Assembly (NCBI GenBank): GCA_015222055.1
Contig: JADFUR010000096.1
Location: forward strand, 1-52,883
Reading direction: 5' to 3'
Length of the DNA stretch: 52,883 nucleotides
Origin: Bacteroidota bacterium
GTDB lineage: Bacteria; Bacteroidota; Bacteroidia; Bacteroidales; B39-G9
Shown: in pieces, positions 22,701 through 38,563 of the stretch
Numbering within the stretch: position 1 is the stretch's first letter
Layout of the letters: each line of letters opens with the position of its first letter
Made by a program: the position numbers and the translations under genes
The notes under the pieces: model-generated
What the model saw: the letters and a program-made list of their open reading frames with translations, nothing else
Databases searched by the model: none
What the model was told of the DNA's origin: nothing

Positions 22701-24010
22701 CACATAAGCCGGAACTATATGCTGATGTTTGCCCACATTGTGGAGGTGCTGCACCTGAAGTTTCAGCAGATATACCACCAAACTTTGTCAAGCGTATTAA
22801 TAAAGAATTAAAGCGTATTATTGATGATGTATATTCCGGTAATATTACAGCCGGAAATATTGACACTCGGCTATTGAAGGTGGTTGGTTCTGCCATAGAA
22901 AAAAGTTTATTCCAGGGCTTTGGAAAAGATTTTGCTACAGTTGATTTTACAACTCCCGATGCTGCAATGTTAAGTAGATTAACACGTGATGTTTGGCAAT
23001 TTTCTGCAGCAAAAAACTATCAGCAATTACGCGACACAACTCTTGCTTTGATTGATGAAAGTGGCAAGGCTCGTAATTTTGCAGATTTTAAAGATGCGGC
23101 AAAACAAATCAATAATAAATACAATGATACCTGGCTAAAGACTGAATATAACCAAGCAGTTGGTAGTAGCACAATGGCAGCACGTTGGTCAGAATATAAG
23201 GCCAATGCCGACATAATGCCTTTTTTACAATACGATACAGCCGGAGATAATAATGTTCGCCCGGAACATCAGTTGTTAGATGGTATTATTCGTAAAATTA
23301 CCGATGAGTTTTGGAAACAATATTTTCCTCCAAATGGATGGGGTTGTCGTTGTGGTGCTAATCAACTAAGCACTAGCACAGCTGTAGAAACTCAGGCAAT
23401 ACCTACCGTAAAAGTGCCGGAAATGTTTAAAACAAATTTGGCTGACAATGGTTTAATATTTCCAAAAGGGCACGCTTATTATACCGGTATTCCAAATAAA
23501 ATATTACGAACCGCAATACAAACATTGCCCGATGATGTGGCATACAAAGCCGTATATACAAATCCCGAAACAAAAGGAAGTATAAAAATGCACTTAATGC
23601 ACGGGACTAGCGAAATGGCTTCAAATATCGCCATGAGCGAAACTCTTGCAGATTATGGTTATAAAGTAAAGCTATTGCCAATTATTGATACTGATAGAGA
23701 CGACATAAGAAAAATAATTTTTAAAACAGATAAATTCATTCCCGGTAAAAATCCGGATGCATTAATTAATAAAGAGATTTTTGAGATGAAATGGCTTAAA
23801 AAAGTTAGTTATAAAAATTTACAACGCAATACTTATAAAGCTTCCAAACAAGCCAACAATGTGTTTCTTAAAATAACAGAGACATTAACCGAGAAGCAAC
23901 TATCACGACCAATCAATGGTATTTTTAATCAAAGCAAAAGCATAAAACAGGTATGGATTGATAATAATGGAGACATATTAAAAATGCAAAACCCAAACTA
24001 CAAAAAATAA
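22664..24010 (+). CDS. MuF minor head protein with nuclease-like C-terminal toxin domain, probably expressed as a frameshift fusion
   Basis: The frame is open from 22607 and reads coding sequence well before its first start-like codon (TTG 22874), including YADVCPHCGGAAPE, so translation must enter earlier. A -1 frameshift from the portal gene gives 448 residues after the joint. The MuF domain is shown by NNVRPEHQLLDG and PPNGWGCRCGANQL. The last 150 residues resemble a CdiA-type C-terminal nuclease: KNPDALIN, EIFEMK (a PD-ExK-like pattern) and ASKQANNVFLKI. MuF-linked polymorphic toxins are known in temperate phages. Injection with phage DNA or release in the host are possible. No immunity gene follows. 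Confidence 0.82.
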   Translation, partial: SLGNNPQAKIIPSHKPELYADVCPHCGGAAPEVSADIPPNFVKRINKELKRIIDDVYSGNITAGNIDTRLLKVVGSAIEKSLFQGFGKDFATVDFTTPDAAMLSRLTRDVWQFSAAKNYQQLRDTTLALIDESGKARNFADFKDAAKQINNKYNDTWLKTEYNQAVGSSTMAARWSEYKANADIMPFLQYDTAGDNNVRPEHQLLDGIIRKITDEFWKQYFPPNGWGCRCGANQLSTSTAVETQAIPTVKVPEMFKTNLADNGLIFPKGHAYYTGIPNKILRTAIQTLPDDVAYKAVYTNPETKGSIKMHLMHGTSEMASNIAMSETLADYGYKVKLLPIIDTDRDDIRKIIFKTDKFIPGKNPDALINKEIFEMKWLKKVSYKNLQRNTYKASKQANNVFLKITETLTEKQLSRPINGIFNQSKSIKQVWIDNNGDILKMQNPNYKK

Positions 24011-26188: not shown

Positions 26189-26680
26189 ATGAATGAATTA
26201 AACAATTATTTTGCAATACTTGACCGGGTTAGCAAATCTGTTGCGAAATTGCCACGCCGTGCAGCTACCGAAGCTGTGAACTTTAGTAAACAGCGTTTTA
26301 AGTCTCAAAATTGGGTTGATACCAATACAGAGCCTTGGAAAAAGCGTAAACCGGTTAAAGAAAGTCGTAAACGTAGTGGCAGGGCTATTTTAACAGATAC
26401 GGCAAGATTAAGACGAAGCATTCGTGTGGTTCATGTTGATAGTAATTCCGTAATTATAGGTACTGATGTTCCTTATGCCGAAGTGCACAATAATGGTTTT
26501 CGTGGAAGAGTTAAGCAAAACGTACGCTCACACACAAGGCGTGGGAATGCTGTTAAAGCCCACACAAGAACAATTAAACAAAATATACCACAAAGAAAAT
26601 TTATAGGGCAATCATCCGTTTTAAATAAGAAATTAGAGCGAATGATGACAGCTGAAATTATAAGAGCTATTAAAGGTTAA
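26189..26680 (+). CDS. tail completion protein (Mu gpG-like virion morphogenesis, PF05069)
   Basis: The 163-residue basic protein carries the family hallmarks: RLRRSIRVVHVDSNSVIIGT followed by DVPYAEVHNNGFRG, and the C-terminal PQRKFIGQS. P2 gpS/Mu gpG proteins join the tail to the head. It begins 41 bp after the tape measure gene, beyond the heptamer repeat. Confidence 0.88.
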   Translation: MNELNNYFAILDRVSKSVAKLPRRAATEAVNFSKQRFKSQNWVDTNTEPWKKRKPVKESRKRSGRAILTDTARLRRSIRVVHVDSNSVIIGTDVPYAEVHNNGFRGRVKQNVRSHTRRGNAVKAHTRTIKQNIPQRKFIGQSSVLNKKLERMMTAEIIRAIKG

Positions 26681-27313: not shown

Positions 27314-27541
27314 TTAAGCAAAGGGCTCAAGTTCTTTAAGTAATAATTTTAACGAAGAATAGTGCGAGAAGATATTCGATCTATAATCAATATCTGTTAA
27401 TCCAATCTCTTCGCTTACAAAATAGCATTCAAATAATGCTTCTAATGTTTTACAAAAATGTTGCGGACTATCAGTTTGCAATATACAATCGTTGACAATA
27501 TCACTAACTTTTATTTTAGTTTCACATTGGTCTGGTATCAT
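27314..27541 (-). CDS. small protein coupled to the antirepressor-like gene
   Basis: The 75-residue acidic protein (CILQTDSPQHFCKTLEALFE) has no recognised domain. Its ATG overlaps the stop of the upstream gene as ATGA (27538-27541), so both are made together. It ends at the bidirectional terminator. A partner or modulator of the upstream regulator is a fair guess from coupling alone. Confidence 0.65.
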   Translation of the reverse strand: MIPDQCETKIKVSDIVNDCILQTDSPQHFCKTLEALFECYFVSEEIGLTDIDYRSNIFSHYSSLKLLLKELEPFA

Positions 27542-28185
27542 AAAACACCTCCCATAAATTTATTAAATAAGCCATTTCTTACTTCTTTGTTTTCTACTTG
27601 AATAAGTAGTTGTACTAATTCGGTATCAACACCAATACCGTTATTTAATATGTGATTACAAACCATTTCAATACGTTCTTGCATGTGAGCACTTACAAGA
27701 TGTGGGCTGTTTCGTAAATGAGTAAGAACAGAAGGATTTATACCAATACGTGCAGCTAATTTAGCATTACTACCCATTAAAATTGCTGTTTTTTCAACTT
27801 TTGATAATAATTGATTATTTTCAATTTTATCAATTTTGTTAATCACTAAATCTTCTGCCCAATCTCGAAATAATTTAGCACGCTCGCTCTTTATAAAAAA
27901 GCCTAAACGGATTATACCTCGTTTTGTCCAATAAACTTTATTGTGTGGGGCTTTTGGTTCGCTGTTACAAATTGTAACAGCACTAATAAAATGTTTACCT
28001 TCCAACAGTTCATCAGAATATCTGTGTTTAGTAACTCTAATTACTGAATTTGAAACACCATAACCTAAAGTTACATCTTTAGTCGGCATTAAAAATTCAA
28101 ACTCCTCATTTGGAATTACAGTAACTTGAAGATTTTCATTTACTGACAAGCTGATAGCTTGATTTTCATTCTTTTTGTAAGACAT
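27538..28185 (-). CDS. phage antirepressor-like regulator (BRO/Ant type), tentative
   Basis: The 215 residues hold VYWTKRGIIRLGFFIKSERA followed by KLFRDWAEDLV. That TKRG..RLGF-(F/I)KSERAK-F-W pattern is familiar from phage antirepressor/BRO-family proteins. A second part (AKLAARIGINPSVLTHLRNS) resembles a helix-turn-helix. It would counter the XRE repressor at 38186 and promote induction. The start codon region AUGUCUUACAA lies within a sequence that can pair with the leader (28231-28240), suggesting post-transcriptional control. Confidence 0.6.
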   Translation of the reverse strand: MSYKKNENQAISLSVNENLQVTVIPNEEFEFLMPTKDVTLGYGVSNSVIRVTKHRYSDELLEGKHFISAVTICNSEPKAPHNKVYWTKRGIIRLGFFIKSERAKLFRDWAEDLVINKIDKIENNQLLSKVEKTAILMGSNAKLAARIGINPSVLTHLRNSPHLVSAHMQERIEMVCNHILNNGIGVDTELVQLLIQVENKEVRNGLFNKFMGGVL

Positions 28186-28355
28186 GATAAAGAATTTAAA
28201 TTAATAAAACGGGCAAAGCCACCTTAGGTGTGTCTTACAATTCATCGCGGGGCGTTGAACCAGTGCATTCTTTCGTTTGCACCACCATAGCAGCTTTGCT
28301 TTATTTTAAATTAAACTTGTTCAGGGATTTGCCCCTGTTGATAAATTGTAAGACA
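28175..28355 (-). promoter_or_regulatory. structured 5' leader with mutually exclusive pairings at the start codon
   Basis: On the minus-strand RNA, segment A (28355-28340, UGUCUUACAAUUUAUC) can pair with B (28246-28231, GAUGAAUUGUAAGACA) over about 16 bp with one G-U, extended by GGGGC/GCCCC. B can instead pair with C (28184-28175, UGUCUUACAA), which covers the start codon and the next three codons. Inside the A-B stem are smaller hairpins (GUGCA/UGCAC, CAGGG/CCCUG). The G-U favours the minus-strand transcript as the folded one. A translational switch or a binding site for an antisense RNA would fit. DNA-level operators are an alternative. Confidence 0.6.
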
Positions 28356-28371
28356 GAGGCAAATATAAGAA

Positions 28372-28941
28372 TTAATTTTTAATATATGGATTGTTCTTAA
28401 TTTTTTTTTCATAAAAACTCACAAAATCATAATCATTTATTTCATTGTAGACATTCATTAATTGTTTTCTTTTTGGAATTTTTCTATTTAACCATTCGCC
28501 TGTAGTTTCTCCAATTTTTAAATCATTCATTGGGGAAATCTCAAGTTTTTCAATAGCTATGCAAGTTTTAATTAATGTTTTTTCGTACGCTTTCATAAAA
28601 TTTTTAAATACTTCATTATCTACTGCTGGCAATTCATTTCTATAATAATATTGGAGTTCTTTTAAACGCCCTTGAAATGCTAATGCAATAGGATAATTAT
28701 ATAATTCTAAATATTTATACAGTTCATTCCCCGTTTTTGCCTTTTCCCCATATTTTTTTGATAAAAGCATATTATACATTCCTATATCATTTCTATCTAT
28801 TTTTTCTTCAACTTTTTTTTCTTTCTTCTTTGAGAAAAAGAAAACACTAATAATTATAAGAAAACATCCCCAAAAATAAAACTCTATTGCTATAAGTATC
28901 GCTCCTATAATCAATAATACTACACCTAAAATTTTTTTCAT
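28372..28941 (-). CDS. two-segment membrane protein of unknown function
   Basis: The 189 residues begin with two adjacent hydrophobic segments (about 3-20 and 22-42), followed by KKKEKKVEEKIDRND and a helical cytosolic domain (LYKYLELYNYPIALAFQGRL). The very AT-rich codon use resembles the host more than the structural genes do. It lies between middle genes and the antirepressor-like gene, a typical cargo position. No domain is recognised. Confidence 0.62.
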   Translation of the reverse strand: MKKILGVVLLIIGAILIAIEFYFWGCFLIIISVFFFSKKKEKKVEEKIDRNDIGMYNMLLSKKYGEKAKTGNELYKYLELYNYPIALAFQGRLKELQYYYRNELPAVDNEVFKNFMKAYEKTLIKTCIAIEKLEISPMNDLKIGETTGEWLNRKIPKRKQLMNVYNEINDYDFVSFYEKKIKNNPYIKN

Positions 28942-38185: not shown

Positions 38186-38563
38186 ATGTCTATAAATAAA
38201 AGGGTTTTAGAATTAAGAAAATATTTAAAGCTAAATCAGTCTTTATTCTCAAAATCTATAAGAATAAGTCAGTCCGCACTATCTCAGATAGAAAAGGGAA
38301 CTATTTCTCTTTCTTTTGAGACGATTAGAAATATTAGTGTCACTTATAATATTAATTGCAACTGGTTGATAAATGGTAAAGGAAAAATGATAGAAGAAAA
38401 TATTGGAACAAATACAGTTAATGAAAAATTCCCTGAATATAAAAATCAAATTAATGAGAATATTCTTACTAAAATGTTAGATAAAAAAGATAATGAAATA
38501 GAAAAATTATCGCAAGAAATAGGAAAGCTAAAATATATTAATGAGCAATTAAAAAACAAATAA
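38186..38563 (+). CDS. XRE-family phage repressor (c-type)
   Basis: The 125 residues begin with an HTH_3 domain (about 4-62: LRKYLKLNQSLFSKSIRISQ, then SALSQIEKGTISLSFETI) and NINCNWLINGKGKMIEE, a common linker in Bacteroidota XRE regulators. A C-terminal coiled coil (EIEKLSQEIGKLKYINEQLK) would mediate dimerisation. Divergent from the Ner-like gene and the only gene at this end, it is the lysogenic repressor. It has no LexA-type protease domain, so induction probably uses an antirepressor. Confidence 0.88.
   Translation: MSINKRVLELRKYLKLNQSLFSKSIRISQSALSQIEKGTISLSFETIRNISVTYNINCNWLINGKGKMIEENIGTNTVNEKFPEYKNQINENILTKMLDKKDNEIEKLSQEIGKLKYINEQLKNK

Follow-up and report, generated by a model that had tools for sequence, protein, structure and literature searches.

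The closest described precedent for the locus reported here is the C4 RNA of phages P1 and P7 (immI operon; Rfam RF01695). P1 C4 is described as blocking expression of ant (PMC8198154, PMC8546580), as acting in trans (PMC8546580, PMC12197685) and as being processed by RNase P, with its a' loop giving target specificity (PMC5320573); the heteroimmunity of P1 and P7 is ascribed to c4 (PMC12197685). The P1 sequence record gives the order a1, b1 (both labelled 'putative' target sites), c4, a2, b2, icd and ant1. Other comparisons are looser. The c4-a1b1 motif, described from gamma-Proteobacteria and phages and carrying no Rfam number (Weinberg 2010, PMC2864571), can be likened to our locus by name alone, as the upstream a1/b1 part of c4 loci. 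The sar RNA of P22 and IsrK of Gifsy-1 likewise control phage antirepressor or antQ genes; the likeness is one of description, and no three-arm layout figures in the account given in PMC12197685.

We analyzed a 52,883-nt stretch of DNA from a Bacteroidota bacterium (hereafter the window), in which an initial annotation had pointed to a leader with two mutually exclusive stems, one of them covering a start codon. The three copies of the 10-mer TTGTAAGACA lie where that annotation placed them, two on the plus strand (28346-28355 and 28175-28184) and the reverse complement at 28231-28240. Its longer inverted pair, 28231-28246 with 28340-28355, was also borne out (16 nt, 94% complementary), and in minus-strand RNA its sole mismatch becomes G-U; GGGGC (28335-28331) and GCCCC (28253-28249) are present on the minus strand as described. 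Read 5' to 3', the minus strand carries a promoter-like box, 4 nt, a1, b1, a C4-shaped RNA with b' before a', the AUG and then a2. In this arrangement the three copies take the places of a1, a' and a2 in a C4-type antisense RNA like that of phage P1. The features are as follows.

28360-28367, minus strand: promoter box TATATTTG of the Bacteroidota -7 type, ending 4 nt before a1.
28340-28355, minus strand: a1, the copy at the 5' end of the leader; its 16 nt form pairs with a' and with the 3' side of the b' hairpin.
28331-28335, minus strand: b1 (GGGGC), which pairs with GCCCC of b' and is part of the -32.7 kcal/mol duplex.
28213-28299, minus strand: C4-type RNA, with an outer stem (28299-28289 with 28223-28213), an inner GGUG/CACC, a tetraloop-type hairpin, the b' hairpin and an unpaired a'.
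28249-28253, minus strand: b' (GCCCC), in and beside the loop of its own hairpin.
28231-28246, minus strand: a' antisense arm, whose last 8 nt (GUAAGACA) stay single-stranded when the C4 forms.
28175-28184, minus strand: a2 target, from the U of the AUG (28185-28183) through codon 4, a 10-nt run with a'.
27538-28185, minus strand: target gene, 215 aa, BRO/antirepressor-like.
27314-27541, minus strand: 75-aa open reading frame overlapping the end of the target gene by ATGA.

The element order (a1-b1, C4, a2, antirepressor) is shared with P1/P7, as is the fold: when the 77-nt C4 of P1 and the corresponding window stretch are each folded alone, they adopt the same topology of outer stem, tetraloop-type hairpin, b' hairpin and unpaired a', the last of which is the specificity element in P1 according to PMC5320573. 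Unlike in P1/P7, a2 covers the AUG and codons 2-4, a1 directly follows the promoter box, b' is a GCCCC common to many relatives, and the phage is Mu-like. The window locus also lacks icd, the antirepressor-like gene beginning directly after the C4-type RNA, and no GGGGC-like partner for b' that could serve as b2, which in RNAs of the P1/P7 kind sits close to the ribosome binding site, is visible downstream of a2. The initial annotation had invoked P22 ant; since the middle arm sits in a folded C4-type RNA with covarying stems of its own, we instead regard P1/P7 c4, rather than P22 ant/sar, as the closer precedent.

The locus lies within a Mu-like prophage (window 14175-38563) that encodes a transposase, a transposition protein, a Mu portal, a tail sheath and a tape measure, together with an HTH_3 repressor-like gene (38186-38563) whose product is likely the phage repressor. 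The top PHROG match of the 215-aa target protein is a family of unknown function (phrog_23341, E 1.8e-15), and the next six are all anti-repressor (E 2.4e-5 to 0.093); Pfam Bro-N matches at E 0.023, below the Pfam cut-off. An antirepressor-like gene thus does lie on the same strand directly downstream of the RNA, as first proposed, though its likeness to antirepressors, judged by these profiles, is moderate. The protein at one related locus (L024) matches phrog_130 (2.5e-42) and resembles the window protein in the C-terminal part only. The 75-aa frame, which the ATGA overlap may couple to the target gene, has no Pfam or PHROG match, and among 91 loci its relatives occur only in L065 and the window's own locus. 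Two neighboring prophage proteins recur more widely, with relatives of the 26189-26680 protein beside 34 of the 91 loci and of the head protein at 22874 beside 23 (duplicates included). A genome scan with a single protein returned none, and a DNA search of annotated phage records gave no match.

The initial annotation had proposed covariation in related prophages as a check. Beginning with an alignment of five relatives, we collected 59 loci from viral contigs and 26 from genomes (85 in total), including Winogradskyella, Flavobacterium, Maribacter and Bacteroidales records and some from elsewhere, such as Thiovulum. Five without a usable start or upstream sequence were dropped (L084, L096, L127, L135 and L140), the window and L024 were added to give 82 leaders, and removal of L131 (too short) and 11 duplicates left 70 non-redundant leaders. 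With no selection on the arms, the pairing of a' with a2 reached at least the 99th percentile of swapped-locus pairs in 21 of the 70 leaders, and that of a' with upstream sequence did so in 34, where about 0.7 would be expected in each case; the 34 upstream passers include at least one case (L097) without overlapping arms. These swapped-locus controls rule out chance repeats.

A run of pairing anchored at the U of the AUG was found in 36 of the 70 leaders, the window included, and 34 of these 36 also have an a1. The other two, L078 and L102, were left out of this three-arm set for their weak a1, and the pairing in L102 is probably due to chance. The 34 three-arm loci, which are a different set from the 34 upstream passers above, contain 30 different a' cores, and the three arms change together. 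Positions 3-9 of a2 are fully paired with the locus's own a' in 26 of 34 loci, compared to 17 of 1122 swapped pairs, for loci and registers preselected for pairing by a register score that credits G·U. Between the window and L077, the C4 bodies are 90% identical and the a' cores 57%, with a1 and a2 each following a'; close pairs do not always differ, as L061 and L067 have the same core. The remaining 34 leaders fail the AUG-anchored test. By eye, some of these (L062, L065, L068, L072, L073 and L129) have arms that are shorter or displaced, and in others, such as L097 and L101, no arms were seen. The arms of related loci therefore vary in concert, rather than being conserved as DNA without compensatory changes, the pattern that the initial annotation had named as refuting it, and the middle arm has the two alternative partners originally proposed for it, one of them the start codon, as a1 and a2 both covary with a'. 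In this three-way covariation, nature also supplies evidence of selection for pairing at the a1 site, which the P1 record labels 'putative'.

In 31 of the 34 three-arm loci, 3 or 4 nt separate a1 from an upstream TAnnTTTG, which we take to be the Bacteroidota -7 consensus; among overlapping control windows this holds for only 9 of 608. Given the position of the box just before a1, a1 should form the 5' end of the transcript. A scan for promoters of the sigma-70 kind found four, with 4.4 expected.

Three co-varying copies, one of them adjoining a promoter box, would look the same if they were DNA operators of a repressor whose specificity differs between phages, and some of the loci have an inverted repeat around a1 that takes in the -7 box, as operators might. 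Strand-symmetric sites, however, predict equal numbers of G-U and A-C deviations. In 26 loci, the first deviation past the Watson-Crick core of a1:a' was G·U 20 times, A·C never and something else 6 times, and over the first five positions past the core there were 27 G·U and 3 A·C; neither this test nor the own-versus-swapped percentile test involved preselection for pairing. The middle copy, moreover, holds a fixed place in a covarying RNA fold. We conclude that the asymmetry of a1:a' rules out DNA operators, which we regard as highly improbable, and that the pairing is that of RNA on the mRNA strand, in agreement with the initial reading of the minus-strand copies as RNA. This argument rests on a1:a', as there was no G·U excess past the a2 core (first position: 3 G·U, 3 A·C and 20 other).

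The same bias is seen within a1 across the 34 three-arm loci, again with loci and registers preselected for pairing: positions 2-16 contain 43 G·U and 3 A·C, but position 1 has 13 A·C, and positions 17-20 have 23 G·U and 20 A·C. Position 8 is G·U in 14 of 34 loci for a1 and 2 of 34 for a2. Across positions 3-12, 19 cells combine G·U in a1 with a Watson-Crick pair in a2, and 4 show the opposite combination. Hence a1 tends to copy the target over a greater length, but with local weak spots. Separately, in the window the inverted repeat TTTGCCTCTGT / ACAGGGGCAAA (28328-28363) flanks a1 and takes in part of the -7 box; a similar repeat occurs in part of the relatives and may be an operator or an RNA hairpin. 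For this TTTGCC../..GGCAAA repeat as an RNA hairpin, an excess of G·U over A·C was not clear.

The middle arm lies within a conserved structure. The C4 topology was recovered in 10 of 11 leaders folded, L130 being the exception, and among ten window-type leaders, double changes occur in 18 of the 29 predicted pairs. We also aligned 27 model matches; this alignment is structure-fitted and includes the ten seeds and three weak matches, of which two are second hits (in L062 and L067). Of its cells, 94.5% pair, and double changes are seen in 26 of the 29 pairs; slid versions of the fold alignment have 38.1-45.9% of cells paired. Judged from these substitutions, selection acts on the C4 fold itself. 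None of 200 shuffles folds as well as the 222-nt leader (z -3.78), whereas the 83-nt C4 segment by itself stands out less (z -1.81, with 12 of 200 shuffles as good).

Curated RNA models do not report these loci at their cut-offs. An Rfam scan of the window at gathering level returned nothing, and at that level none of 20 related loci matched any c4 model (0 of 21 sources with the window). When 1.8 kb was scanned permissively, the one relevant match was to c4-2 RNA, over its full length (28295-28215, minus strand), with 22.7 bits and an E of 0.12, below the gathering cut-off of 41. Searched with the c4-2 model, the window's whole genome gave no hit at E<=0.001, and it is absent from the genomes that the model does match (12 of the 295 from the order and 10 of the 395 from the phylum). 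We built a model (R1) from the ten window-type leaders, without c4-2 loci. At E<=1, R1 recovered 34 of 44 loci collected with the c4-2 model, 31 of them also at E<=0.001 (lowest E 2.2e-9), as well as the 3 loci obtained through a c4-2 pattern, and recovery by this sequence-structure model points to common ancestry of the window-type RNA with Rfam c4-2 (RF02944). R1 did not match P1's C4. It recovers 21 of the 34 three-arm loci, to which the covariation of the fold applies, the other 13 falling outside.

Read by eye, many c4-2 loci are similarly arranged: a box comes first, followed by the upstream copy, the C4 and a downstream copy close to a start codon. In c4-2 loci, however, a hairpin loop serves as the variable arm, UAGGA/UCCUA stays constant and the target is usually found immediately upstream of the AUG, whereas window-type loci vary in the unpaired a', and the start codon is part of what a' targets. 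Nine genomes of a single genus (g190; L028-L057) carry 2 to 6 c4-2 RNAs each; at most of the 29 loci examined there, the upstream and downstream copies match, and several distinct loop sequences occur. We considered whether differing loops in co-resident copies could prove action in trans, and rejected this: 0 of 34 within-genome pairs were identical, compared to 9 of 372 between genomes (label-shuffle P 0.43). At several c4-2 loci (L028, L031 and L009), an ATG after the upstream copy opens a short frame into the C4 RNA.

At the level of sequence comparison, then, the relatives demonstrate the fold, the two pairings, their strand and the position of the target. We consider it likely that a C4-type antisense RNA is encoded in the leader and silences the prophage antirepressor. 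Transcription would start at or just before a1, and the C4 RNA would be freed by processing or by the transcript ending at the outer stem. Free C4 would then pair in trans with the AUG and codons 2-4 of the antirepressor mRNA, whether that of its own prophage or of a superinfecting phage, and block initiation; without C4, the antirepressor would inactivate the phage repressor, for which the HTH_3 protein is the candidate. The variable arm would then set immunity specificity, as in P1/P7. Among the features that count against silencing by a C4-type RNA, b2 is missing, and a2 alone provides 10 bp.

The outer C4 stem and the U residues after it could also act as an attenuator that ends most transcripts, leaving free C4 and little antirepressor mRNA, which is compatible with silencing by a C4-type RNA. 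A stretch with at least 6 T in an 8-nt window occurs 10-40 nt after a' in 22 of the 34 loci, but by that measure 12 of 34 have no such run, and a scan of 27900-28700 found no terminator-like site on the minus strand. We regard attenuation as rather doubtful.

The role of a1 allows several readings: it may keep the precursor inactive, permit self-limitation or be part of a cis switch. In the last, a' would pair with a1 (gene on) or a2 (gene off) within one leader molecule, with no separate RNA. Both pairings are present and covary, and that with the upstream partner is far stronger: the predicted duplex energy of the C4 segment is -32.7 kcal/mol with a1 and b1 and -13.9 with the start-codon segment (for the arms alone, -19.4 for a1 with a' and -11.4 for a2 with a'). 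In a predicted leader beginning at a1 (28355), a' is paired with probabilities of 0.88-1.0 (0.65 for its last base), presumably with a1, as suits pairing in cis, and the AUG region is 0.03-0.66 paired. When the leader starts at 28371, however, the best predicted fold keeps the C4 form with a free a'; as the two folds differ, whether the a1-paired or the C4 form wins would depend on the 5' end and on processing. Further, the outer stem encloses a', so that a' could reach a1 or a2 in the same molecule only through a pseudoknot or after the stem opens; a plain switch needs no selected C4 fold, yet the fold is under selection; and the characterized relative is described as acting in trans (PMC8546580, PMC12197685). 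A purely cis switch thus seems unlikely to us. The a1 arm extends into the b' hairpin, whereas a2 needs only the unpaired a'. Pairing with a1/b1 requires the b' hairpin to be opened and so excludes the mature C4 fold, and it probably keeps the unprocessed precursor inactive or lets C4 limit itself.

The kind of RNA is already known (C4); the variant features are the start-codon target, the absence of b2 and icd, the Mu-like setting and, by eye, the exchange of constant and variable arm roles relative to c4-2 loci. A literature search by title gave no description of such an RNA for Bacteroidota, from which we claim no absence from print. The locus places P1-type RNA control of an antirepressor in Mu-like phages outside Proteobacteria, and its short arm predicts which related phages should be heteroimmune. 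More tentatively, and with more doubt than conviction, we suggest that many Bacteroidota phages share an RNA immunity code, in which a C4 class reads the antirepressor start codon and first codons, a1 is a 5'-terminal self-decoy and the early residues drift. If so, the 30 a' cores would be potential immunity groups; the self-decoy, often weakened by G-U, would allow C4 to be handed from its own precursor to the target, and the first residues of the protein would drift along with the RNA code.

R1 matched 4 of 295 genomes of the order, with a single copy in the window's genome, and two of the loci were new. At one, found with R1 alone (L147, 1351-1950), three arms identified by eye precede an HTH protein rather than a BRO-like one, such that the device looks modular. 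At the other (L146), arms identified by eye precede a small unknown protein.
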